Shown here in pieces: positions 1 to 59,154 of a stretch of 64,000 nt of DNA. Source of the stretch: Candidatus Desulfovibrio intestinavium (GTDB taxonomy: Bacteria > Desulfobacterota > Desulfovibrionia > Desulfovibrionales > Desulfovibrionaceae); NCBI GenBank assembly GCA_019118345.1, contig DWZD01000007.1, forward strand, positions 1 to 64,000, given 5' to 3'. Below the pieces are notes generated by a model that had not been told where the DNA came from, ran no database searches, and was given only the letters and a program-made list of their open reading frames with translations. The position numbers were made by a program, and so were the translations under genes. Each line of letters starts with the position of its first letter. The stretch's first letter is position 1.

Positions 1-615
1 TTTGGCGGTATCCAATTTCGCGATACTAAGTCTGGAGATTTAATAGATATTATTCAATATATCAGGCGTAGTACAAAATTTAAATTGATAAATACTATTA
101 TTTGGTATTATAAGAATGGTATGTCTGCACATAGATATTTCGCAAACAGGCATGAAGAGGTTATTTGGTTAGCAAAGTCAAATGATTATTATTTTGATTT
201 AGACGCAGTCAGAGAACCATATTCAGAGAAAGATTTAAAGCTGGCATTAAAGGATAAGCGTCTTAATCCAGAAAACACGATAAAAGGGAAAAATCCTACT
301 AATGTTTGGCAAATAGGGAGGTTAAACGGAAATAGTAAAGAGCGAGTAGGACACCCAACTCAGAAACCAATTGAGATTATTAGCCGTTTTGTCAAATCAC
401 TTTCGTATCCAGGTTCAGTAGTTCTTGACTTTTTTGCTGGAAGCGGAACTGTTGGTAGAGTGTGTATTACAGAGGGGCGGCACTGCTTAATGTGTGATAG
501 TGATCCTGCTTCAAAGGACTATTTCAATAAGCATATTGAATTGATGAAAAACCTTGAGCAAGATTCTGAGTATGAAGACATTGAAAGTACTAGTAAATTT
601 TTTAACATTGAATAA
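1..615 (+). CDS. Adenine-N6 DNA methyltransferase, M.RsrI-like, 5'-truncated by window edge
   Basis: The reading frame is open from base 1, so the start and the DPPY catalytic motif lie outside the window; about 204 C-terminal residues are present. The sequence reads FGGIQF, then NGMSAHRYFANRHEE, FDLDAVREPY, RVGHPTQKP and the SAM-binding motif DFFAGSGTVGRV near the C-terminus. That order (catalytic motif first, SAM motif last) is the beta class, and the match is to M.RsrI, which methylates GAATTC. A gene for an EcoRI-like nuclease lies 15 bases downstream on the same strand, so this is the protecting half of a restriction-modification pair. Base composition is much more AT-rich than the rest of the window, a sign of transfer. 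Confidence 0.9.
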   Translation, partial: FGGIQFRDTKSGDLIDIIQYIRRSTKFKLINTIIWYYKNGMSAHRYFANRHEEVIWLAKSNDYYFDLDAVREPYSEKDLKLALKDKRLNPENTIKGKNPTNVWQIGRLNGNSKERVGHPTQKPIEIISRFVKSLSYPGSVVLDFFAGSGTVGRVCITEGRHCLMCDSDPASKDYFNKHIELMKNLEQDSEYEDIESTSKFFNIE

Positions 616-629
616 TGGAGTACATAGAA

Positions 630-1473
630 ATGAAAAAAGGACAGTCAAATAGATTGACAGTACAGCAAAAAGGTGGACAAGGGCCTATAACAATATTTCA
701 TCAAGATGCCCAAATACATGATGAAGGAGTCGGAAATGCCTCTCTTTTTGTAAAAAAGACAACTTGAGATTGAATTTCCCATGCTTAAATTTAGATATAG
801 AAAGGACTTGTATAAAAGAGAAATCAATGAATATTTGAGAAAGATTGATGCATATCTTGGGCAAACACTTTTTGTAGAAAGCGCAAGTATAAGACCAGAT
901 GGTGGGCTCATAGAAGTACAAGACGATAAAGGTAATTGGCGTGTTGTATTAGTATCTGAGGCAAAACATCAAGGGAAAGATATTGAAAATATTAGAGTTG
1001 GCAAGCTTGTTGGCAAGAAAAATAATCAAGATTTAATGGCAGCAGGAAATGCAATCGAAAGAGCATATAAAAATGTAAATGAAATTGCTAATTTCATGCT
1101 ATCAGAACGATATTTTCCTTATATTCTGTTCTTAGAGGGGTCCAATTTTTTGACGCAAAATGTAACTGTTGTAAGACCTGATGGCAGAGAAGTGACATTA
1201 GTTTATAATGACGGTACGTTGAATAGGCTTGATAGATTAACCGCTGCAAATTACGGAATGCCCATAAATACTAATCTTTGCGAAAATAGATTTGTAAGAT
1301 GTAACGGTGTAAATATCATGCTGCAAGCTGCTTCCATTTACACAAAAGGTGAGGGCGGGCATTGGGATAATAAAGATATGGCTATAATAATGCGTGAGGT
1401 TGCAATGACTTCGTTGAAAATGTTGGGGTCTGATCTTTTTAATCAGATTACAAAACAAAATAGTCTATATTGA
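630..1473 (+). pseudogene. EcoRI/RsrI-type restriction endonuclease, frameshifted at a poly-A run
   Basis: An N-terminal part starts at ATG 630 (MKKGQSNRLTVQQ, like the EcoRI N-terminus) and runs to SLFVKK, then hits TGA at 765-767. The frame resumes one base off as KRQLEIEFPMLKFRYRKDLYK and continues to 1473. The change point is a six-A run at 752-757; with five As the frame is open and gives about 280 residues, close to EcoRI (277). Catalytic residues are intact: PDGG (the Asp), then SEAKHQGK (Glu and Lys), and the DNA-contacting DLMAAGNAIER segment is conserved, so GAATTC recognition is predicted. Either the nuclease is dead, the run is variable between cells, or the extra A is a sequencing error. 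A start at 781 would lack the N-terminal arm. Confidence 0.88.
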
Positions 1474-1582: not shown

Positions 1583-1966
1583 ATGTCTTACACGAAAGAA
1601 ATGTGTTTGTACCTTCTCGACAACCCCGACAACATTGAAGCTGAATCTCTTACCCAGTGCGTTGAGCGGCAAGTCTTCCAAGCCATGAATAAAGCCATAT
1701 CCATGCGTGTTGGCGACAGAACGCCGTGGCGCGGCCAGTACGCGCTCGTGACCGGCGATGACGAGGAGCACGAAGAAACGTGGTTTGCCTGCGCTCATTG
1801 CCGTACAAAGCCAACAGTGATCCCCTCGTGTGCTTTCGGTTGCGGGAGAACGGGTGAAGGCCGTTTACCCGCCGAAGCAGTAGTAGAGGAAAGAGGGGGG
1901 GCGTGTCGTTTTACACGCCTCCTTTTCTTCTTTCCTGCCCAAAGAACGCTCAAGAGGTGTAGTTAA
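1583..1966 (+). CDS. Small hypothetical protein, possibly a degraded island gene
   Basis: A 127-residue ORF begins at ATG 1583 after an AGGAG ribosome site (1573 region). The first 70 residues (MSYTKEMCLYLLDNPDNIEAE...) look like a soluble acidic protein; the rest, rich in Cys, Arg and Phe, does not look like natural protein. A strong terminator hairpin (1897-1928) sits inside the 3' end of the frame, which is not expected for an intact gene, so the C-terminus may be a frameshifted tail. I do not recognise the family. It lies between the restriction gene and tRNA-Ser and probably belongs to the acquired island. Confidence 0.45.
   Translation: MSYTKEMCLYLLDNPDNIEAESLTQCVERQVFQAMNKAISMRVGDRTPWRGQYALVTGDDEEHEETWFACAHCRTKPTVIPSCAFGCGRTGEGRLPAEAVVEERGGACRFTRLLFFFPAQRTLKRCS
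1897..1928 (+). terminator. Rho-independent terminator inside the 3' end of the small ORF
   Basis: A 10-bp stem (1897-1906 with 1913-1922, one G-T pair), loop CGTTTT, followed by TTTTCTTC. Confidence 0.7.
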
Positions 1967-2135: not shown

Positions 2136-2230
2136 TGGCGGAGAGGGAGGGATTTGAACCCTCGATACAGGTTTAAGCCCGTATACTCGCTTAGCAGGCG
2201 AGCTCCTTCGGCCGACTCGGACACCTCTCC
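2136..2230 (-). tRNA. tRNA-Ser(GCT), CCA encoded
   Basis: The minus strand folds as a tRNA with a long variable arm: acceptor GGAGAGG with CCTCTCC, discriminator G and encoded CCA, anticodon loop CTGCTAA giving anticodon GCT, and T-loop GGTTCAAATCC. The 95-base length fits tRNA-Ser. Its 3' end points to the AT-rich island, the usual side for tRNA-targeted integration. Confidence 0.95.
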
Positions 2231-4401: not shown

Positions 4402-5763
4402 CTAGCATTCCGGAGCGGCAAAGGGGCGATAGCGGCGTTCGTACCGTTCGGCCAGCTCCAGCAGGCAGGCGTCGCTGCCCGGTTGGCCCACCAGCTGCAT
4501 GCCGCAGGGCATGCCGTCCACGAGTCCGCCCGGATAGACCAGCACCGGATTGCCCGTCATGCTGAAAAGATTCATCAGCAAGCGCGCCTCGCGATAGGTC
4601 GCATTGGGCGCATCCAGACGCGGCGCCGTCAGAAAGGCCGTGGGCAGCAGCAGGGCGCAGAGCTTTTCCCGGGTAAAGAAGGCCTGCGTGGCCTCGCCCA
4701 GTTCGCGGCGTCCGGTTTCGGCGGCGGCATGAACTTCGGGGGGCATGTCCCGCCCCGCCGCATAGTCGGCGGCCGGTATGGCGTGCATGCGGTTGCGGGC
4801 CGGGCTGCCTTCCACATCCCCGCGCACGTCGCGGTGGAATTCATGACTGCGCAGGCTGTCCACAATGCCGCCGATCCCGTCCTCCACCAGCAGGGGAAAG
4901 TCCACGTCCGTCACCTCGCAGCCCAGAGCCGCCCAGCGTTCGATGCTCGCTTCGTAGCGGTCGGCAATGGCGGCTTGCGCCTTTGCGGCTTCCTGCCGTA
5001 CCAGCGCCCGCATGACGCCCAGCCGCGGACGTTCAGGCAGGGGCGCGGCTGGCGGATCCCCCTGCAGCATGGCCCGCAGCAAAAGCTGCATGTCGGCGGC
5101 CGAGACGGTCAGCAGGCCCGGCACGTCCATGCTGGCCGCCCGGGGGTAGATGCCCCGCATGGGCAGCAGACCCCAGCTCGGACGCAGGCCGAACAAGCCG
5201 CACCAGCCAGCGGGCAGGCGAATGGAGCCGCCGGTATCCGTGCCCAGGGCGGCGCAGCACATGCCCGCCGCCACAGCCGCGGCGCTGCCGCTGGACGAAC
5301 CGCCCGGCGAACAGTGCCGCGACATGTGCCAGGGATTGACCGTCGGCCCCCAGCAGGAGGTGCGCCCGCTGACATGGGCGGCAAATTCATCCATGTTGGT
5401 CTTGCCCAGTATGATGGCCCCGGCCCGGCGCAGGCCCTCGATGACGGCGGCATCCCGCGCAGCCGCCGGCGCGGCGGCGAAGATGGGGCTGGCCACGGTC
5501 GTGGGCAGGCCTTCCACGTCGATATTGTCCTTCACGAGCAGGGGAATGCCGTGCAGGGGGCCGTAATCCCTGCCGCCGCGCAGCTCTTCCTCAAGGCGCA
5601 GAGCCGTGCTTTCCGCATCCTGCGTCAGGGTGATGACGGCATTGAGCTTGTCGTTGAGCCGGGCGATGTTCTGGCGGCAGCGGTGGAGCAGGTCAGGAAC
5701 GGTCAGGCTGCCCCGGCGAAGGGCGGCAGCCGTTTCGATCAGATTGGCGGGTGCGGAATTCAT
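4402..5763 (-). CDS. Amidase-signature family amidohydrolase
   Basis: A 453-residue amidase-signature enzyme. The Ser-cisSer-Lys triad is visible: Lys in LLVKDNIDVEG, the Gly/Ser-rich stretch SPGGSSSGSAAAVAAG, and the nucleophile region GTDTGGSIRLPA. Such enzymes hydrolyse amides to acid plus ammonia; GatA belongs to the same family, but there is no gatB or gatC here and the C-terminus is amidase-like, so a catabolic amidase or amide hydrolase is more likely. Its start overlaps the stop of the upstream transporter gene by four bases (ATGA), so the two are co-translated and the transporter probably imports the amide substrate. The substrate cannot be told from sequence. Confidence 0.88.
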   Translation of the reverse strand: MNSAPANLIETAAALRRGSLTVPDLLHRCRQNIARLNDKLNAVITLTQDAESTALRLEEELRGGRDYGPLHGIPLLVKDNIDVEGLPTTVASPIFAAAPAAARDAAVIEGLRRAGAIILGKTNMDEFAAHVSGRTSCWGPTVNPWHMSRHCSPGGSSSGSAAAVAAGMCCAALGTDTGGSIRLPAGWCGLFGLRPSWGLLPMRGIYPRAASMDVPGLLTVSAADMQLLLRAMLQGDPPAAPLPERPRLGVMRALVRQEAAKAQAAIADRYEASIERWAALGCEVTDVDFPLLVEDGIGGIVDSLRSHEFHRDVRGDVEGSPARNRMHAIPAADYAAGRDMPPEVHAAAETGRRELGEATQAFFTREKLCALLLPTAFLTAPRLDAPNATYREARLLMNLFSMTGNPVLVYPGGLVDGMPCGMQLVGQPGSDACLLELAERYERRYRPFAAPEC

Positions 5764-11586: not shown

Positions 11587-12441
11587 ATGCTGCAATCCCC
11601 GTTTCTTCCCGCTGCCCTTTACGGCGTCATCGGCTGGCCGCTGGCCCAGAGCCTGAGTCCCCTTGTGCACAACACGGCCTTTCAGGCCCTGGGCATGGCT
11701 GCCGTCTACATGCGCTGGGAAATCGCCCCGGAAAGGCTGGCTGCCTTTGTGGCCGCCTTTCGGCTGCTCGGCCTGCGCGGCTGTTCGGTGACCATCCCGC
11801 ACAAGGTGGCCGTCATGCCCCTCCTGGACGAGGTCAGCCCGCTGGCCCGGACGGTGGGGGCGGTCAATACCCTCTATTGGCGCGAAGACCGCCTGTGCGG
11901 CGAAAATACCGACGTGGCCGGCTTCATGTCGCCGCTGCTGGCCCGCGATCTGCCCCGCGAGACGCCCGTGCTTCTGCTGGGCGCGGGGGGCGCGGCCCGC
12001 GCTGCCGCCGCCGGTCTGCAGGCGCACGGTTTCAGGGAAATCAGCGTGTGCACCCCCTCAGACCGGACGCATGTGGCGCTGGCCGAAGCCTTCGGCCTGC
12101 GGGCCGTGCGCTGGCAGGATCGGCATGAAGCGCCCGCGGGACTGGTGATCAATGCCACGCCGCTGGGCATGCGGGGCAAGGCCGAGGAGGAAACGCCCTA
12201 CGACTTCGGAACGGCCGCCGCTGCCGGACGGGGGGGGCTGGCCTACGACATCGTGTACAATCCCCTGCGGACGCGCTTTCTGCGCGAGGCCGGGGAAGCG
12301 GGCTGGCAGGCCGTCAGCGGGCTGGACATGTTTCATGCGCAGGCGGATGCGCAGTTTCGGCTCTGGACGGGCAGGGGACTTCCGTCCGAGGCCCGCGCGG
12401 CGCTGGAAGCCGCCCTGGGCAATGACGGAGCGCGGAGGTGA
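11587..12441 (+). CDS. aroE: Shikimate dehydrogenase
   Basis: A 284-residue NADP-dependent enzyme reducing 3-dehydroshikimate to shikimate. N-terminal substrate domain: GVIGWPLAQSLSPLVHN, SVTIPHKVAVM (catalytic Lys) and GENTDVAGF (Asp). Nucleotide domain: LLGAGGAARAAAAGL. C-terminus: INATPLGM and DIVYNPLRTRFL. ATG 11587 has GGAG upstream; the longer frame to 11461 overlaps the flgE terminator and is not used. The stop overlaps the aroQ ribosome site, so aroE and aroQ are co-translated consecutive steps of the same pathway. Confidence 0.95.
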   Translation: MLQSPFLPAALYGVIGWPLAQSLSPLVHNTAFQALGMAAVYMRWEIAPERLAAFVAAFRLLGLRGCSVTIPHKVAVMPLLDEVSPLARTVGAVNTLYWREDRLCGENTDVAGFMSPLLARDLPRETPVLLLGAGGAARAAAAGLQAHGFREISVCTPSDRTHVALAEAFGLRAVRWQDRHEAPAGLVINATPLGMRGKAEEETPYDFGTAAAAGRGGLAYDIVYNPLRTRFLREAGEAGWQAVSGLDMFHAQADAQFRLWTGRGLPSEARAALEAALGNDGARR

Positions 12442-12443
12442 GC

Positions 12444-12917
12444 ATGCACGACTATCTGATCCTGCACGGCGTCAACCTCAATATGTTCGGGCGGCGCGAT
12501 CCGGCGCATTACGGCACCAGCACCCTGGCGGACATCAATGCCGCGCTGGGGGCCTTGGCCGCCGAACTGGGGGTCGGGCTGGACATCTTCCAGACCAACC
12601 ACGAAGGCGAGATGGTGGAGCGCATTCACCGGGCGCTGGATGACGGCACGCGCGGCATCGTCATCAATGCCGGGGCCTGGACGCATTGCAGTTATGCCAT
12701 CATGGACGCCCTCGGCATGGTGTCCGTGCCGGTGGTGGAGGTGCACATGTCCAATGTGCATGCCCGCGAGGCCTTCCGTCACGAATCGGTGCTGGCGCGG
12801 GTGAGCGCGGGCAGCATCGCCGGCTTCGGGCCGCAGAGCTATCTGCTGGGACTGCGCGCGGTGCATGCTCTGGCCGCCGAGCGGGCGGCAGCGGCGGCCC
12901 GAGAAATTTCCTCGTGA
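12444..12917 (+). CDS. aroQ: Type II 3-dehydroquinate dehydratase
   Basis: A 157-residue dodecameric-type dehydroquinase making 3-dehydroshikimate. LHGVNLNMFGRRDPAHYG carries the catalytic Arg and Tyr; FQTNHEGEMVERIH, INAGAWTHCSYAIMDAL and EVHMSNVHARE are the other conserved segments. GGAGG (12434-12438) lies 5 bases before ATG 12444; a GTG at 12438 would overlap that ribosome site, so ATG is preferred. It makes the substrate of AroE encoded just upstream. Confidence 0.95.
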   Translation: MHDYLILHGVNLNMFGRRDPAHYGTSTLADINAALGALAAELGVGLDIFQTNHEGEMVERIHRALDDGTRGIVINAGAWTHCSYAIMDALGMVSVPVVEVHMSNVHAREAFRHESVLARVSAGSIAGFGPQSYLLGLRAVHALAAERAAAAAREISS

Positions 12918-12966
12918 AAAAAACGGCAGAGGCGGGCAGAAGGCTGGATTTTTTCCTCTCCTTGCG

Positions 12967-12980
12967 TTAGGACAACCTAA
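12967..12980. promoter_or_regulatory. Small inverted repeat upstream of the hdr-flx operon
   Basis: TTAGG-ACAA-CCTAA (12967-12980) in the 109-base gap before hdrC, followed by AT-richer sequence that should hold the promoter. A regulator site is possible but unproven. Confidence 0.3.
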
Positions 12981-13026
12981 ATTTGGCTACGCCCCAGACC
13001 TTCAGACTTTAACCCTGTGAGATCCC

Positions 13027-13611
13027 ATGAACGACGCCATTGAACTAAGCCGGATGCGCGATGCCGACTTCACGGCGGCAGTGGACGCCCAGAGCGGTCA
13101 GAGGATTTCCACCTGTTACCAGTGCGGCAACTGCACTGCCGGTTGCCCTGCGGGCTTTGTCTATGACCTGCAGGTCAATCAGGTCATGCGCAGCGTGCAG
13201 CTGGGCCTCAAAAACAAGGTGCTGAATTCCCGCTCCATCTGGATGTGCCTCTCCTGTTCCACCTGCAGTCAGCGTTGCCCCAACAACATCGATGTGGCCG
13301 GTGTGATGGAGACCCTGCGGCACATGGCCCGCAAGGAAGGCATTGTCACCGTGCCCAAGGTGGACAAATTCTGGACATCCTTCCTTGCCACGGTGCGCAA
13401 GTACGGCCGCACCTACGAAATCGGCACCATGGTGCTCTACATGCTGCGCTCCATGCGGGTATTCACCGACGTGGATCTGGCGCCCACCGCCCTGGCCAAG
13501 GGCAAGCTCGGCTTCAAGCCCCACAAGACGCCTGAGGAAGGCGCCGAGGCCGTGGGCCGCATCTTCAAGCGCTATCAGGAACGCGCCAATCGACAGGGGG
13601 TGCGCGCATGA
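13027..13611 (+). CDS. hdrC: Heterodisulfide reductase-like subunit C
   Basis: A 194-residue iron-sulfur protein with two 4Fe-4S motifs, CYQCGNCTAGCP and CLSCSTCSQRCP, that carries electrons between HdrA and the HdrB active site in the cytoplasm. It opens a six-gene operon whose members overlap or nearly touch (hdrC stop and hdrB start share ATGA). The ribosome site is weak (GAG 8 bases upstream). In Desulfovibrio such Hdr proteins work with Flx subunits rather than with methanogen coenzymes. Confidence 0.93.
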   Translation: MNDAIELSRMRDADFTAAVDAQSGQRISTCYQCGNCTAGCPAGFVYDLQVNQVMRSVQLGLKNKVLNSRSIWMCLSCSTCSQRCPNNIDVAGVMETLRHMARKEGIVTVPKVDKFWTSFLATVRKYGRTYEIGTMVLYMLRSMRVFTDVDLAPTALAKGKLGFKPHKTPEEGAEAVGRIFKRYQERANRQGVRA

Positions 13612-14516
13612 AAATAGCCTACTATCCCGGCTGCTCGGCCACGGGTTCGTCGGCCGACTACGAAAAGTCCACCCAGGCCGTCTGCGCCGCGCTGGGCATG
13701 CAGATGGAAGAAATCCGCGGCTGGAGCTGCTGTGGTTCCACCCCGGCCCATGCCGTGGACACCCAGCTTTCCGGCGCGCTGAGCGCGCGCAATCTTGACC
13801 TTGCCGCCCGCCAGAAGGCCGACATGGTGCTCACGCCCTGTCCGAGCTGTCTTTCCAATCTGCGCCACGCGGCCAAGCGTCTGGAAAACCCCGAGTTCCG
13901 CGCCGGCGTCAATGAGCTGCTGGACGAACCCCTGCCCGAGAAGCTGCCCGAGGCCCTCTCGGTCATGCAGGGCATTGCCCGCACCTATGATATGGACGCC
14001 ATTGCCTCGCGGGTGCGCAAACCGCTGGCCGGGCTGAAACTGGCCGCCTATTACGGCTGCCTCATGAGTCGGCCGCACGAGGTCATGGAATTCGGCGATC
14101 CCGAAAATCCCACCCTCATGGAAAGCCTGCTCACTGCCTGCGGCGCGGAAATGGTGGATTTCCCGCTGAAGACCGAATGCTGCGGCGCTTCCTACGGCAT
14201 TCCCGAGCGCGCCATGACGGCCCGCCTGACCGGCCGCATCCTCAATCTGGCCACCATGCTGGGCGTGGATGCCGTGGTCGTGGCCTGCCCGCTCTGCCAG
14301 ATGAACCTTGACCTGCGCCAGCAGCAGGCGGCCAAGGAAGCGGGCGTCGCCTTCAGCATGCCGGTGCTCTATTACACCCAGCTCATGGGCATCGCCTTCG
14401 GCCTCGCGCCCAGCGCGCTCGGGCTGGATAAACTCTGCGTCAGCGCCGACAATCTGCTGCGCAAGCTGGATCAGCCTGCTGTCTGCAGCAAGGCTCCCGA
14501 AGGAGACAAGGCATGA
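13608..14516 (+). CDS. hdrB: Heterodisulfide reductase-like subunit B
   Basis: A 302-residue protein with the paired CCG-domain motifs that hold the noncubane 4Fe-4S clusters reducing a disulfide: RGWSCCGSTPAH and CPSC in the first half, TECCGASYGIP and ACPLCQMNLDLRQ in the second. The physiological disulfide in sulfate reducers is not certain; DsrC trisulfide or a similar thiol has been proposed. It overlaps hdrC and hdrA by four bases each. Confidence 0.94.
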   Translation: MKIAYYPGCSATGSSADYEKSTQAVCAALGMQMEEIRGWSCCGSTPAHAVDTQLSGALSARNLDLAARQKADMVLTPCPSCLSNLRHAAKRLENPEFRAGVNELLDEPLPEKLPEALSVMQGIARTYDMDAIASRVRKPLAGLKLAAYYGCLMSRPHEVMEFGDPENPTLMESLLTACGAEMVDFPLKTECCGASYGIPERAMTARLTGRILNLATMLGVDAVVVACPLCQMNLDLRQQQAAKEAGVAFSMPVLYYTQLMGIAFGLAPSALGLDKLCVSADNLLRKLDQPAVCSKAPEGDKA

Positions 14517-16474
14517 GAATAGGCGTTTTCATCTGCCATTGCGGCAGCAATATCGCCGGCACCGTGGACTGTGCCAAGGTGGCCGAGAATGCGCGTATGT
14601 TCCCCGACGTGGTGCTGGCCCAGGACATCATGTACACCTGCGCCGAACCGGGGCAGGCGGCCATTGAGGCGGCCATTCACGAGCACAAACTCGACGGCGT
14701 GGTTGTTGCCTCCTGTAGCCCCCGCATCCACGAGCCGACCTTCCGCCGGACGGTGGAACGCGCCGGCCTGAACCGCTACATGTTCGAAATGGCCAATATC
14801 CGCGAACATGTGTCGTGGATCGGCAAGGACAAGGACGCCAACACCAACAAGGCGACCGAACTGGTGCAGATTGCCGTGGCCAAGCTGCGCAACGACAAGC
14901 CCCTCAAGGCCAAGTCCTTTGACATCAACAAGCGCGTGCTGATCATCGGCGCGGGCGTGGCCGGCATCCAGGCCGCCCTGGACTGCGCCGAAGGCGGCAT
15001 CCAGGTGGTGCTCGTGGAACGCGAAGCCACCATCGGCGGCAAGATGGCCAAGCTGGACAAGACCTTCCCCACGGTGGACTGTTCGGCCTGCATCCTCGGC
15101 CCCAAGATGGTGGACGTGGCCCAGCATCCCAACATCACCCTGTACGCCAAGTCCGAGGTGGAAGACATCTCCGGCTACGTGGGCAACTTCAACATCAAGA
15201 TCCGCAAGCGCGCCACCTATGTGGACTGGGACAAGTGCACCGGTTGCGGCGCCTGCACCGAGAAGTGCCCGGCCAAGAAGACCCCGGACACCTTCAATGA
15301 ACTGGTCGGCCCCACCACAGCCATCAACATCGCCTTCCCCCAGGCCATCCCGAAGAAGGCGGTCATCAATCCCGAGCACTGCCGCCAGCTCACCAAGGGC
15401 AAATGCGGCGTGTGCGCCAAGGTCTGCCCCACCGGCGCCATCAACTACGAACAGCAGGATGAGATCGTCACCGAGGAAGTGGGCTGCATCGTGGCCGCCA
15501 CCGGTTATGACCTCATGGACTGGACGGTCTACGAGGAATACGGCGGCGGACGTTACCCCGACGTGGTGACTTCCCTGCAGTACGAGCGCCTGCTCTCGGC
15601 TTCCGGCCCCACCGAAGGCCACATCAAGCGGCCTTCCGACGGCAAGGAACCCAAGAACATCGTGTTCATCCAGTGCGTGGGCTCGCGCGACCGCTCCATC
15701 GGCCGTCCGTACTGCTCCGGCTTCTGCTGCATGTACACCGCCAAGCAGGCCATCCTGACCAAGGACCACATCCCGGATTCCAAGTCCTATGTCTTCTACA
15801 TGGACATTCGCGCCAACGGGAAGATCTACGACGAATTCACCCGCCGCGCGGTGGAGGAATACGGCACGGAATACATCCGCGGCCGCGTGTCCAAAATCTA
15901 CCCTGACGGCGAAGGCCACCTCGTGGTGCGCGGCGTGGATACGCTGCTCGGCGAAGGCGTGGAAATCAAGGCCGACCTCGTGGTGCTGGCCGTGGGCGTG
16001 GAAGCGGCCAAGGGCTCGCCCAAGCTGGCCGAAAAGCTGCGCATCTCCTACGACAGCTACGGCTTCTTCCTCGAAAGCCACGTCAAGCTGAAGCCCGTGG
16101 AAACCAATACCGCCGGCGTCTATCTGGCCGGCGTCTGCCAGGGCGTCAAGGACATTCCGGCCTCCGTGGCCCAGGGTTCCGCCGCCGCCGCCAAGGTGCT
16201 GGCCCTCTTTGCCAAGGACAAGCTGGAAAACGACCCGCAGATCGCCAGCGTGGACATGAAGCGCTGCGTGGACTGCGGCAAGTGCATCCGCTGCTGCCCC
16301 TTCGGCGCCATCAAGGAAGTGGAGTTCCGCGGCAAGATGTACGCCCAGGTCATCGAAACCGTCTGCCAGGGCTGCGGTCTCTGCACCTCCACCTGCCCGC
16401 AGGGCGCCATCCAGCTCTCCCACGCCACCGACAACCAGATTCTTGCGGAGGTTAACACGCTATGCCAGTGCTGA
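14513..16474 (+). CDS. hdrA: Heterodisulfide reductase-like subunit A, FAD electron-bifurcating subunit
   Basis: A 653-residue flavoprotein. Domains: N-terminal region with CHCGSNIAGTVD; FAD-binding VLIIGAGVAGIQAAL with TVDCSACILGPKM; ferredoxin inserts CTGCGACTEKCP and CGVCAKVCPTGAI; C-terminal two-cluster ferredoxin CVDCGKCIRCCPFGAI and CQGCGLCTSTCPQGAI. It is the flavin site expected to split electron pairs between ferredoxin and HdrB. Starts at ATG overlapping the hdrB stop by four bases; ends 13 bases inside the next gene. Confidence 0.95.
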   Translation: MRIGVFICHCGSNIAGTVDCAKVAENARMFPDVVLAQDIMYTCAEPGQAAIEAAIHEHKLDGVVVASCSPRIHEPTFRRTVERAGLNRYMFEMANIREHVSWIGKDKDANTNKATELVQIAVAKLRNDKPLKAKSFDINKRVLIIGAGVAGIQAALDCAEGGIQVVLVEREATIGGKMAKLDKTFPTVDCSACILGPKMVDVAQHPNITLYAKSEVEDISGYVGNFNIKIRKRATYVDWDKCTGCGACTEKCPAKKTPDTFNELVGPTTAINIAFPQAIPKKAVINPEHCRQLTKGKCGVCAKVCPTGAINYEQQDEIVTEEVGCIVAATGYDLMDWTVYEEYGGGRYPDVVTSLQYERLLSASGPTEGHIKRPSDGKEPKNIVFIQCVGSRDRSIGRPYCSGFCCMYTAKQAILTKDHIPDSKSYVFYMDIRANGKIYDEFTRRAVEEYGTEYIRGRVSKIYPDGEGHLVVRGVDTLLGEGVEIKADLVVLAVGVEAAKGSPKLAEKLRISYDSYGFFLESHVKLKPVETNTAGVYLAGVCQGVKDIPASVAQGSAAAAKVLALFAKDKLENDPQIASVDMKRCVDCGKCIRCCPFGAIKEVEFRGKMYAQVIETVCQGCGLCTSTCPQGAIQLSHATDNQILAEVNTLCQC

Positions 16475-17910
16475 ACGGCAAAGAACTGCGAATTGTGGGT
16501 TTTCTCTGCAACTGGTGCTCCTACGGCGGTGCCGACACCGCCGGGACGGCCCGTGCGGGACAGCCCACTGACCTGCGAATCATCCGCGTCCCCTGTTCGG
16601 GCCGCATCGATCCGCTCTTCATCGTGAAGGCCCTGCTCAACGGCGCCGACGGCGTGCTGGTTTCCGGCTGCCATCCGCGCGACTGCCACTATGCCGCGGG
16701 CAACTTCTATGCCCGCCGCCGTCTGGAAGTGCTCAAACAGTTCCTGCCCGTGCTCGGCATCGACGACCGCCGCTTCGAGTACACCTGGGTGTCCGCTTCC
16801 GAAGGCCAGCGTTGGCAGCATGTGGTGCAGACCTTCACCAAGCGCATCCATGACCTCGGCCCCGCGCCGAAGCTGGAAGATCCCGAACCGCTGCTCAAGG
16901 TGGTGGACATGGCGCTGACCTCGCTGCGTCCGCTGGGCACCGGCCAGAAGAACAAGCTGGACGAGCTCAAGGCCGCCATCAAGGCCAAGCTGCCTGAACT
17001 GGAGCTGGTCATCGGCTGGCAGCAGGGCTATGACGCCGCCCGCACGGTGCCGCTGTTCATGCGCACGCCCGAAGATGTGGACAAGCTCGTCTGGGGCCCG
17101 TTCAACGTCAACAACCCCGCTGTCTACCTGCCCCAGTACAAGGGCAAGAAGGTGGGCATCGTGGTCAAGGGCTGCGACGCCAAATCCGTGGTGGAACTGC
17201 TGCAGGAAAACCTGATCAACCGCGAGGATGTGACCATCTTCGCCATGCCCTGCGAAGGGACGCTGGACATGGCCCGCGTCAATCAGGAACTGGGCCGCTA
17301 TACCACCATTGACAAGGTGGAATATGACGAGGCCGGCGTGACCATCACCGCCGACGGCAAGGAGCATCGCTTCTGCATGAACGATTATGCGCAGGGCAAA
17401 TGCTACGGCTGCACCATGCCCACCGCCGTGCTGTCCGATACCCTCATCGGCACGCCCACGGAAGTGAAGCCCGGCCCCTACACCCCGCCGGAACTGGCCC
17501 TGCTCGATTCCATGAGCCTGGACGAGCGCCTGGCCTTCTGGCGCGGCCAGATGGAGCGTTGCATCCGTTGCTACGCCTGCCGCAACGCCTGCCCCATGTG
17601 CGTCTGCCGCGACTACTGCATTGCCGAAAGCCGCGAACCGCACTGGATCTCGCAGGATGACAGCACCCGTGAAAAACTCTTCTTCCAGACCATCCACGCC
17701 ATGCACCTGGCGGGCCGCTGCACCGGCTGCGGCGAATGCCAGCGCGCCTGTCCCGTGGGCATCCCGATTCTGGCCCTGCGCCAGCAGATCGCCCGCGCCG
17801 TGGGTCAGCTCTTTGACGGCTACAAGTCCGGCGTCGATCCCGAGGCCGTGCCGCCGCTGCTGGGCTACGAAGTGGAAGAAAAGAACATTCATGAGAGGGA
17901 GTGGAAATGA
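16462..17910 (+). CDS. Fused FlxD/FlxC: MvhD domain plus ferredoxin-type iron-sulfur domain
   Basis: A 482-residue fusion. Residues about 1-130 are an MvhD-type 2Fe-2S domain (FLCNWCSYGGAD, VPCSGR, SGCHPRDCHY) that passes electrons to HdrA. The rest resembles the FlxC/FrhB-like iron-sulfur subunit, ending with CYACRNACPMCVC and CTGCGECQRACPVGIP. In D. vulgaris these are described as separate FlxD and FlxC; here one frame encodes both, which fits the presence of only two further flx genes. GGAGG lies before ATG 16462, which overlaps hdrA by 13 bases, so translation is coupled. Confidence 0.85.
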   Translation: MPVLNGKELRIVGFLCNWCSYGGADTAGTARAGQPTDLRIIRVPCSGRIDPLFIVKALLNGADGVLVSGCHPRDCHYAAGNFYARRRLEVLKQFLPVLGIDDRRFEYTWVSASEGQRWQHVVQTFTKRIHDLGPAPKLEDPEPLLKVVDMALTSLRPLGTGQKNKLDELKAAIKAKLPELELVIGWQQGYDAARTVPLFMRTPEDVDKLVWGPFNVNNPAVYLPQYKGKKVGIVVKGCDAKSVVELLQENLINREDVTIFAMPCEGTLDMARVNQELGRYTTIDKVEYDEAGVTITADGKEHRFCMNDYAQGKCYGCTMPTAVLSDTLIGTPTEVKPGPYTPPELALLDSMSLDERLAFWRGQMERCIRCYACRNACPMCVCRDYCIAESREPHWISQDDSTREKLFFQTIHAMHLAGRCTGCGECQRACPVGIPILALRQQIARAVGQLFDGYKSGVDPEAVPPLLGYEVEEKNIHEREWK

Positions 17911-18974
17911 GCATCACCCGTTTTGTAAAGCCTGAGGGCCTCCCGGCGTTTCTGGCTCACCTCTCCAAGGAAGCCCGCGTGCTGGCCCCTGTGGTGAAGC
18001 CCGCCGACAAGCGTTCCGTGATCTTCGAGCCCTGGAAGGAAGGCAAGGAATTCACGCTGGAAAAGGCCACCGTGCCCGCCAAGGCCGCGGTGCTGCCCCA
18101 GTGCGAAACCCTTGTCAGTTACCGCAAGGTCAAGGATCCGGCCAATCCCCAGAATGTGAAGCTGGAACTGGACGATACCCCGCAGGCCGAAACCACGGTG
18201 GTCTTTGCCGCCCGTCCCTGCGACGCCCGCGGTTACGCCACGCTGGATCGCCCCTACCTGCAAGGCCCCATCGCCGACCCCTACTACAAGGCCCGGCGGG
18301 AAAAACTCACCGTCATCACCCTGACCTGCAACAGCGGCTGCAATACCTGCTTCTGTCACTGGGTGGGCGGCGGGCCTTCCTCGCCCGAAGGTTCGGACAT
18401 CCTGATGACCGAACTCAAGGACGGCTACATCCTGCAGGGCATCACCCCCAAGGGCGACGCCCTGCTGGAAGGCAGCGGCCTCGATGACGGCGCGGATCGC
18501 TTCAAGGAAATGGAAGACGTGCGCAAGGCGGCCTGGGGCACCCTCGTCAAGGCCCCCAACCTCAAGGACGCTCCGGCCAAGGTGGCGGCCAAGTTCACGG
18601 ACGTGGACTTCTGGACGCGCGAAACCGACCGTTGCCTCTCCTGTGGCGCCTGCACCTACTTCTGCCCGACCTGCTACTGCTTCAACATTACTGACGAGGG
18701 CGAAGCCACCAGCGAAAAGGGCGGGCGGCGTCTGCGCAGCTGGGACAACTGCATGTCGTCCCTGTTCACCCGCGAAGCCAGCGGGCACAACACCCGTGTG
18801 GAAAAGGCCCTGCGCATGCGCAACCGCGTGTCGCACAAGTTCTCCACCTATCCCGAGAACTGGGGAACCTTCTCCTGCAACGGTTGCGGCCGCTGCATCA
18901 GCAACTGTCCCGTGAGCCTTGACATCCGCCAGATCGTGCTGGATGCCATCAACGCCGACAAGGCCGCCAAGTAG
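17907..18974 (+). CDS. flxB: FlxB-like 4Fe-4S subunit
   Basis: A 355-residue iron-sulfur protein resembling the beta subunit of sulfhydrogenase/anaerobic sulfite reductase A families. The C-terminal half has two clusters, CLSCGACTYFCPTCYC and CNGCGRCISNCPVSLD; an inner CNSGCNTCFCHWVGGG motif binds another centre. It should relay electrons from the flavin subunit FlxA to the FlxD/C fusion and HdrA. ATG 17907 follows AGGGAG by 5 bases and shares ATGA with the upstream stop; a GTG two codons earlier is less well placed. Confidence 0.85.
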   Translation: MSITRFVKPEGLPAFLAHLSKEARVLAPVVKPADKRSVIFEPWKEGKEFTLEKATVPAKAAVLPQCETLVSYRKVKDPANPQNVKLELDDTPQAETTVVFAARPCDARGYATLDRPYLQGPIADPYYKARREKLTVITLTCNSGCNTCFCHWVGGGPSSPEGSDILMTELKDGYILQGITPKGDALLEGSGLDDGADRFKEMEDVRKAAWGTLVKAPNLKDAPAKVAAKFTDVDFWTRETDRCLSCGACTYFCPTCYCFNITDEGEATSEKGGRRLRSWDNCMSSLFTREASGHNTRVEKALRMRNRVSHKFSTYPENWGTFSCNGCGRCISNCPVSLDIRQIVLDAINADKAAK

Positions 18975-18983
18975 AGGTAAGAC

Positions 18984-19871
18984 ATGGCGACGCAAAGCAA
19001 AAAGGAAGGGATGCTGCGCGAGCTGACCCCCCGTCCGCTCCCGCAGGGCAATCCCTACAAGCCCATGCCGGCCACTGTGCTGGAAACCATTCAGGAAACG
19101 GGCAACATCAAGACCATTCGCGTGGTGCTTGACGACCCGGAACAGATGGCCAATTTCAAATATGAACCCGGTCAGGTGGGGCAGCTCTCGGTCTTCGGGG
19201 CCGGGGAATCCACCTTCGTCATCAACTCCCCGCCGTCCATGAAGGATTACCTCCAGTTCTCCGTCATGCAGGCCGGGGAAGTGACCTCCACCATCCACCG
19301 GCTGTCCGCCGGGGACAAGGTGGGCGTGCGTGCCCCCCTGGGCAACTTCTTCCCCTACGAGGACTGGAAGGGCAAAAACATCTTCTTCGTGGGCGGCGGC
19401 ATCGGCATGGCCCCCATCCGTACCATCATGCTGCACATCCTCGAGCGCAAGAAGGATTACGGCAAGGTGAGCCTGCTCTACGGGGCCAAAAGTCCCAGCG
19501 ACATGGCCTTCAGCTACGAGCTGCAGGGCTGGCTGGACAATCCCGATCTGGATTGCCACCTCTGCATCGACAATCCGGCCGAAGGCTGGCAGCACAAGGT
19601 GGGCCTCATCCCCAACGTGCTGACCGAGATCGGCCCCAAGCCCGACAACTGCGTGGCCGTGCTCTGCGGCCCGCCGATCATGATCAAGTTCACGCTGCAG
19701 GCCCTCGAAAAGCTGGGCTTCCAGCACGAGAACATCGTGACCACGCTGGAAAAGCGCATGAAGTGCGGCATCGGCATCTGCGGCCGCTGCAACATCGGCA
19801 GCCACTACGTCTGCATTGACGGCCCGGTGTTCACCCTCAAGCAGCTCAACGGCCTGCCGCCGGAACTCTAG
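18984..19871 (+). CDS. flxA: FlxA-like NAD(P)H/FAD oxidoreductase subunit
   Basis: A 295-residue ferredoxin-reductase-type protein: FAD domain (PGQVGQLSVFGAGE), NAD(P) domain (FVGGGIGMAPIRTIM) and a C-terminal 2Fe-2S motif (MKCGIGICGRCNIG...YVC). It is the entry point for NADH (or exit for NAD+), completing a cytoplasmic Hdr-Flx complex thought to couple NADH, ferredoxin and a disulfide carrier. It starts 9 bases after flxB and is followed by a terminator, so it ends the operon. Confidence 0.88.
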   Translation: MATQSKKEGMLRELTPRPLPQGNPYKPMPATVLETIQETGNIKTIRVVLDDPEQMANFKYEPGQVGQLSVFGAGESTFVINSPPSMKDYLQFSVMQAGEVTSTIHRLSAGDKVGVRAPLGNFFPYEDWKGKNIFFVGGGIGMAPIRTIMLHILERKKDYGKVSLLYGAKSPSDMAFSYELQGWLDNPDLDCHLCIDNPAEGWQHKVGLIPNVLTEIGPKPDNCVAVLCGPPIMIKFTLQALEKLGFQHENIVTTLEKRMKCGIGICGRCNIGSHYVCIDGPVFTLKQLNGLPPEL

Positions 19872-19900
19872 TCCGGCCCGGTCGTCCACGGCTCATTCAT

Positions 19901-57022: not shown

Positions 57023-58765
57023 CTACTTCGCGAAGTGCTTCTTGTCCAGGTGTTCGTACTTGGGCAGGAAGCGGGTGGGCAGGGCCAGAGCGTCGCGACG
57101 GAAAGGCGGAGCCAGACGGGTACCGTCGGTCATGATTTCGATCACGGCCGGACGACGGTTCTTCTTGGCGGCGTCGAGGGCTTCGGCCAGGTCCTTCTGG
57201 GTGTTGACGGTGTAGCCGTCGGCGCCCATGGCTTCGGCGATTTTCGCGTAGGACTTGGACCAGATGTCCGCGCCCACGAAGCGGTTGTTGTAGAAGTCCA
57301 CCTGGTTCTTCTTTTCCGCGCACCAGGCACCGTTGTTGTACACGGTGGCGATGACGGGCAGGTTGAACTGGCAGGCGGTGGGCACTTCGAAGAGGCTCAT
57401 GCCCCAAGCGCCGTCGCCGGCGATGGACAGCACGGTGTCTTCGGGGCAGGCCAGCTGCGCACCAAGGGCGGCCTGATAGGCGAAGCCGGTGTTACCGAAG
57501 GTCAGGGTAGCGATGTGACGTTTCGGATTCTTGAAGCGCAGGTAGCTGTTGGCGGTGGAGGAGGTGTTGCCGATGTCGGTGGTGGCAATCACGTTGTTGT
57601 CGGTGACGAACTTGCCGACCACTTCGAGGGCCTTGCGGGGATGCATACGGCCTTCGATGGTGGATTCGTTGGCGATTTCGTCGATTTCCTTGTACCACAC
57701 GTCCAGTTCGGACTTCACGCGATTGTACACGGAGGTCAGGTCGGCGCAGGGCTTGGTGGCTTCACGCAGCTGCTTCAGCAGTTCCACGGAGGCGTCGCCG
57801 GCGTCGGCGCACAGACCCACGGTGATCGGGTGGGTTTTGGCGATGTGCAGCGGGTTGATGTCGATCTGCACGATCTTGGCGGTCTTCGGGAAGTAGTTGA
57901 TGCCGTCCTGGGGCAGGGTGCCGAAGTAGGACAGACGGGTGCCCACGGCCAGGATGACGTCGGCGTCCTGCATGATGCGCATGGCGGCATGGGAACCCAT
58001 GTAGCCGATGGGGCCGGTCCACAGCGGATGGTCGCAGGGGAAGGCGTCGTTGTGCAGGTAGGTGCAGGCAACCGGAGCGCCGAGGTGTTCGGCCAGGGCT
58101 TTCACGGTTTCCACGCAGTCGGCGTCAACCACGCCGCGACCGGCCACGATCACGGGTTTCTTGGCGCCCTTCAGCACTTCCACGGCGTGCTTGAACTGTT
58201 CCGGGTTGCCGATGCCGCCGGGGGCCACGCGATACTGGCTGGGCTTCAGGATTTCTTCATCCAGTTCGCCGTAGAAGTAGTCGCGCGGAACGTCCACGAG
58301 CACGGGGCCACGCAGGGCATAAGCGGTGCGGAAGGCGGTGCGCAGGACGTCAGCGGCGCGTTTCGGATGGGGCACGCGCAGGGAAGCCTTGGTCACGGGC
58401 TTGAACAGGTTCCACGTGTCGCATTCCTGGAAGCCGTCCCAACCGATGGAAGCGGAGCCGGCGCTGGGGGAGATGATGATCATCGGGGTGTGGGCCATGT
58501 TGGCGGTGGCCACGGCGGTCACGTAGTTGGTGATGCCGGGGCCGTTCTGGCCGATGACCACGCCGGCTTTGCCGGTCAGGCGGCAGAAAGCGTCTTCCAT
58601 GTGACCAGCGGTCTGCTCATGACGCACGGAGATGAAATCGATGCCGGCGGCGGGGAACAGGTCCAGAAGGTCCATGTAAGCGGAACCGAGGATACCGCTG
58701 ACGTGTTTGACGCCTTCTTCCACCAGGACTTCGGCCATCGCCTCACTGGGAGTCATCTTGGGCAT
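57023..58765 (-). CDS. xsc: Sulfoacetaldehyde acetyltransferase
   Basis: A 580-residue thiamine-diphosphate enzyme that converts sulfoacetaldehyde plus phosphate to acetyl phosphate and sulfite. N-terminus [19 protein letters not shown] then [32 protein letters not shown] (catalytic Glu), [16 protein letters not shown]-terminal cofactor motif GDGAWGM...TVYNN. These match Xsc better than acetolactate synthase. In a sulfate reducer the sulfite could feed respiration and acetyl phosphate could yield ATP. AAGGAG lies 8 bases before ATG 58765. No taurine or sulfolactate enzymes are in the window. Confidence 0.92.
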
Positions 58766-59154
58766 AATTACGCTCCTTATGCACACTGTTTATTGTGAAC
58801 ACAACCACGCGTCTGCGAACGGAACCGCAGAATGCGTGGAACCCGAACTCGTTGACTGTCTCCCGGGTTGGCGCGTGCCAACCGGATCCCACCGGGGTGG
58901 GAAATGGGATGACTCTTCATACGACGGAAGCGCCGATCATGTCAACCATCGCACTAAAAATGGCGGGCAGCTTCTCGAGATCACAGATAAAATTTTTTTT
59001 CACAGACGCATCGCCGCAGAGGCGGCATATGGCCATCCCCTTGAAAGCATGGCGCTTTGCCTCCCTCAGGCTGATGCCGCCGGCCGCGCACGGGGCGCAG
59101 CATGATCGTCCGGTGCGGCTCTGCCACGAACTGACCGGCGCGCGCACGGGAGGC
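58766..59154. other. 389-base gap upstream of xsc
   Basis: I see no gene here. It holds the xsc leader with small inverted repeats (GGTTGGC-GCGT-GCCAACC near 58865 and CCCACC-GG-GGTGGG near 58890), an imperfect palindrome TGTTTATTGTGAACA (58787-58801) close to the xsc ribosome site, and a direct repeat TCACAGA (58981 and 59000) flanking an AT-rich tract. Promoter and operator of xsc probably lie here. Confidence 0.4.

Follow-up and report, generated by a model that had tools for sequence, protein, structure and literature searches.

The left end of the window, by which we mean the whole 64,000-nucleotide stretch of DNA analysed here (bases 1-64000 of the 81,090-bp contig C42), carries an EcoRI/RsrI-type restriction-modification (R-M) pair whose endonuclease gene is split between two reading frames at a run of six adenines. 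The membership of this gene in the EcoRI family and the break of its frame in the assembled sequence are both far beyond chance. The best reading of the locus, to which we attach a probability of about 0.6, is a strain-level loss of the nuclease within a decaying element. On this reading the pair is the cargo of a small integrative element inserted into the 3′ end of tRNA-Ser(GCT). The element is a relic, its integrase gone and both genes flanking the cargo frameshifted. The frame change at the six-A run would have knocked out the endonuclease gene in this strain, leaving it without a full-length nuclease, and intact copies persist in closely related strains. The methyltransferase would continue to mark GAATTC with no nuclease to cut it, provided that its gene is whole across an assembly gap. 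The host genome (2.53 Mb in 54 contigs) encodes a dsrA gene scoring above the NCBI cut-off, indicating that the host is a sulfate reducer, presumably Desulfovibrio-like.

The interrupted endonuclease gene

The features of the endonuclease gene are as follows:
630..767, + strand: endonuclease gene, first piece (ATG at 630, 45 codons, then TGA at 765-767)
752..757, + strand: six-A run, site of the frame change (from the reading frames and the PF02963 matches)
757..1473, + strand: endonuclease gene, second piece, read in the following frame (230 aa from its first ATG, at 781; holds the catalytic and DNA-reading residues; PF02963, e-value: 2e-128)
1457..1466, no strand: right edge of the cargo (homology to the congeners G006, G091 and G090 starts at 1458, 1466 and 1464, respectively)

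In the open reading frame analysis the second frame is open from 757 to a TGA at 1471-1473. The Pfam EcoRI profile (PF02963) matches 675-764 with its positions 1-30 (e-value: 4.9e-4) and 757-1446 with its positions 28-257, and as these are consecutive parts of the profile, the change of frame occurs at the six-A run. The first piece scored 20.1 bits in one scan, below the 22-bit cut-off of the profile, and 22.5 bits in another. The downstream piece shares 152 of 224 residues with EcoRI (1ckq), and all eight of the residues that were checked are kept, namely the catalytic D91, E111 and K113 and the DNA-reading N141, A142, R145, R200 and R203. The original prediction of an EcoRI-type gene with its key residues, broken at 752-757, is thus borne out by matches on both pieces. 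EcoRI and RsrI themselves are reported to be clear relatives, about 50% identical (PMC4081073). The gene differs from both in its broken frame and in being chromosomal island cargo. Translation from the ATG at 630 would yield 45 residues, and the product is expected to be inactive, with no cutting anticipated.

The C-terminal residues read KQNSLY, as against KQK in the sister copies described below, which points to another small difference, at about 1457-1466. A second homopolymer error may be its source, but an effect of the junction is as likely, given that congener homology starts at 1458-1466. The DNA around the nuclease gene has a GC content of 35%, compared to 64% for the contig.

The adjoining methyltransferase

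The left end of the window is the contig edge, which falls inside the partner gene:
1..615, + strand: M.RsrI-like adenine methyltransferase, 3′ part (codons 106-309 and stop; PF01555, e-value: 5e-39; the contig edge cuts the gene)

The translated product is 100% identical to residues 106-309 of a sister protein, P0122 (309 aa), for which the best solved relative is M.RsrI (1eg2; residues 5-305; e-value: 2.9e-99). With an EcoRI/RsrI-type nuclease and a methyltransferase whose best solved relative, judged from its sister, is M.RsrI, both members of the pair are RsrI-like, and GAATTC is the likely recognition sequence. The start of another contig of the same genome, C1, when reversed, encodes the first 11 codons of this methyltransferase by comparison with P0122, and position 1 of C42 corresponds to codon 106, indicating that C1 and C42 are neighbours across about 280 unassembled bp. 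Unlike M.RsrI, the putative enzyme is therefore represented by 204 + 11 of its 309 codons, with about 93 codons in the gap, including those for the DPPY motif (residues 66-69 of P0122). The suggestion in the original prediction that the methyltransferase is retained is accordingly borne out only in part, by the visible codons 106-309, whose frame stays open through two A5 and two T6 runs.

GAATTC occurs 23 times in the window, three of these sites being those at 4837, 13224 and 53667. Across the 81,090-bp contig, 27 sites were observed and 23.9 were expected under a Markov model, so that this contig displays no avoidance of the sequence. It had been argued that such sites (the first placed near 4836) require either methylation or loss of cutting. 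The sites are present, but as a host with a live R-M system would carry them too, they do not discriminate between the readings.

A relic integrative element at tRNA-Ser(GCT)

To the right of the pair lie the following features:
1583..1966, + strand: remnant (127 aa) of the 205-aa right-end gene of the element, frameshifted by one base and lacking ~317 bp by deletion
2136..2230, - strand: tRNA-Ser(GCT), integration site (tRNA gene call)
2136..2201, no strand: 66-bp attachment repeat, recurring exactly on the minus strand of C1 (1138-1203) of this genome

The repeat comprises the last 66 bp of tRNA-Ser(GCT), and its copies form direct repeats at both ends of the element. The island between them is ~3.55 kb in size (1137 + 280 + 2135 = 3552 bp, where 280 is derived from the size of the sister protein). 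A 264-aa gene at its left end is split here over two frames at C1:390-393. No integrase-sized open reading frame is present in C42:1-2135 or C1:1-1137, and the integrase of the congener G091, used as query, found no match in C1:1-6000 or C42:1-2400. As the integrase is absent and could not be accommodated in the 280-bp gap, the element is a relic.

The same 66-bp repeat, with the 264-aa gene at the left end and the 205-aa gene at the right end, marks an element in two congeners, where, unlike here, both flanking genes are full length and an integrase is retained. Between the repeats of G091 are found the 264-aa gene, the methyltransferase (PF01555) and restriction gene (PADLOC REase_II) of a Type II system, the 205-aa gene, further genes and, beside the tRNA, a PF00589 integrase. 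The integrase of G090 is 97% identical to that of G091, and its element is without the G091 R-M pair, holding a TetM/TetW-family gene as cargo instead. A third congener, G006, has other genes at the slot and, within the stretch fetched, only the tRNA copy of the repeat. The DNA rightward of about 1458-1466 is common to G090 and G091 (both 94%) and G006 (92%), and the same congeners are 82-83% identical in the neighbouring glnS region, below the 92-94% of this shared DNA. Among 79 congeneric genomes, positions 1-1580 of the window find matches in four, namely the genome itself and three in which the match starts no earlier than 1458-1466. Judging from this arrangement, the EcoRI-type pair occupies a cargo slot of the tRNA-Ser element. 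The earlier interpretation of the locus stands in part; this mobile-element setting did not figure in it.

Several further observations were made at these slots. The G090 gene (L137, C71:1-20000, 15418-17337) encodes a 639-aa ribosomal protection protein of the TetM/TetW/TetO/TetS family, with NF033148 above its cut-off. At the G091 locus (L134, G091:C1:1199001-1219000, 12318-19892) the integrase of the element is intact and the slot is taken by another Type II R-M pair, and a second, larger integrase gene (457 aa) just outside the left repeat suggests that elements are arranged in tandem. Of the open reading frames at the G006 slot (L136, C1:2206501-2226500, 16077-18564), one was read as Fic-like and one as a 300-aa membrane protein.

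A plasmid or phage origin of the pair was considered and rejected, the plasmid collection yielding 18 records at 65-70% identity and the phage collection a single Helicobacter phage at 69%. The latter, H. pylori phage PQ159904.1, carries an EcoRI-annotated gene, the match pairing positions 18505-18880 of the record with 980-1355 of the window. Viral contigs hold eight relatives, the best of them 86% identical. EcoRI-type genes of ~69-70% identity also occur at L059, L073, L074 and L075, in genomes of Patescibacteria type according to their record titles. Among human-gut D. piger, one report records R-M systems in all strains studied and places 13 of 18 prophages in or beside tRNAs (PMC12724379). 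No paper on this island was recognised among the titles and abstract openings returned by a literature search.

Intact sister proteins and related loci

A protein search returned 5,518 matches, of which the best 120 are considered here. The first, P0001, is the broken 230-aa form and is recorded on three contigs, the longest being 81,090 bp as is C42, although contig counts are not sample counts and these three may represent one assembly entered three times. Three further proteins of 277 aa are full length, namely P0002 (two contigs, the longest 61,391 bp), P0003 (one contig of 3611 bp) and P0004 (three contigs, the longest 3611 bp). They share 100% amino acid identity with the downstream piece over 98% of its length and derive from the single open frame that is absent here, showing that not every member of this lineage has the break. 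P0003 differs from the present copy only in the frame and the last residues. Both have Gly15, a residue that is Asp in P0002 and P0004 and Glu in P0006 and P0015, and the frame change, if real, is thus probably no older than the Gly15 change.

The 127-aa remnant recurs with one residue changed as P0241, found on three contigs of which the longest is 3611 bp. As this maximum is the same as for the intact P0003 and P0004, the sisters would appear to share this decayed island but to have kept the nuclease intact in it. A contig ending in the repeats in an assembly graph of k = 31 would be about 3612 bp in length, close to the observed 3611 bp, and the 3611-bp contigs are likely to be this island.

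Only four of the 120 best proteins (P0001, P0005, P0013 and P0077) lack the N-terminus, the remaining 116 being near full length. Of the endonuclease loci of relatives, six of the 87 assessable are broken and 81 are intact, with one further locus at a contig edge, indicating that real loss of the endonuclease is not rare. A stop codon in one of them (L016) lies close to the homologous position of the present break. Besides the sisters, the closest homologues among the best matches listed are genes of gut Firmicutes. In pairs such as L003 and L004 the endonuclease is 89% identical, the gene order is the same and the methyltransferase is 90-91% identical over the visible 203-204 residues; these pairs differ from the present one in their Firmicutes hosts and intact nuclease copies. 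PF02963 was detected in only one of 61 genomes scanned, which is the genome itself, and in none of its 60 relatives.

Alternative explanations of the frame break

The main alternative, which we regard as possible though considerably less probable than loss, is that the nuclease is intact in the cell and that the consensus gives the A run a wrong length, close to a contig end that is AT-rich and poorly assembled. The position of the gene, close to the contig end and beside the ~280-bp gap in the methyltransferase gene, in DNA of such low GC content, is the likeliest place for a consensus error and counts against the loss reading. The existence of the intact and otherwise identical P0003 fits an error equally, as does the second, single-A-sized difference at the 3′ end of the nuclease gene relative to the KQK ending of the sisters. 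Against this, no break was accepted in 34 further genes, which together cover 37,200 bp of the contig and contain 92 homopolymers of at least five bases, one of them of eight; these genes represent 36 congener-matched entries less two short and doubtful ones (58707-59105 and 77293-77616), and some were aligned only in part (e.g. 131 of 165 aa). Signs of a generally error-prone contig were not seen in these genes: twelve congener open reading frames were flagged as split, and were judged to be overlapping or antisense frames because better-matching, unbroken frames cover the same five places. The A5 and T6 runs of the visible methyltransferase part likewise leave its frame open. The recurrence of the neighbouring 127-aa form in another assembly, with a changed residue, argues that at least that frameshift is real, and the record of P0001 on three contigs also speaks against an error.

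Strain-level loss of the nuclease fits best, as intact sister copies exist and both open reading frames flanking the cargo are also frameshifted, and the frame break is accordingly likely to be present in the living DNA. Among the three readings offered in the original prediction, loss is hence the favoured one, a sequencing error retains a share of the probability and phase variation is left with little.

Phase variation, in which slippage at the A run would switch the nuclease on and off within a population, is improbable. It would account for the broken P0001 and the intact P0003 being otherwise identical, and the protein letters of P0005, from another lineage, look as if one base had been inserted in or next to the homologous A run. 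The run consists of only six adenines, however, and A runs of at least this length number 17 on the contig. Known phase-variable switches use longer tracts. Runs of at least six at the homologous codons were found in only four of 84 loci of relatives (L003, L004, L020 and L022), all four with intact genes, showing that the run is not conserved; the long or conserved simple repeat expected of a phase-variable gene is thus not present. A related and similarly improbable proposal is a slow switch, in which the A run of EcoRI-type nucleases would slip recurrently, in this lineage and in that of P0005. If true, a marked majority and a cutting minority would be kept, in a tRNA-Ser slot that swaps restriction systems and other cargo.

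Least probable, and very unlikely, is that the 230-aa product is made from the ATG at 781 and is functional, for instance in binding GAATTC without cutting. This ATG lies 13 nt past the stop codon with a weak GAGA upstream, and the four N-terminally shortened proteins noted above also speak for it. The restart product would, however, lack the disordered dimerisation loop, alpha1 and alpha2, and near full-length proteins prevail among the best matches. Programmed -1 frameshifting at A-AAA-AAG, a dnaX-like motif, would provide no rescue, as the third frame is entered and stops after 26 codons. Five peptides spanning residues 2-60 of EcoRI were all reported to be inhibitory (PMC11755562).

Implications

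That a nuclease is lost and its methyltransferase kept has been seen before and constitutes ordinary biology; as such, it will not surprise the specialist. The locus would provide a snapshot of decay in a horizontally acquired R-M pair, with the nuclease broken here and intact in near-identical sisters and the integrase already gone. The tRNA-Ser(GCT) site would furthermore represent a cargo slot in the genus, which in different species holds an EcoRI-type pair, another R-M pair or a tetracycline-resistance-type gene.
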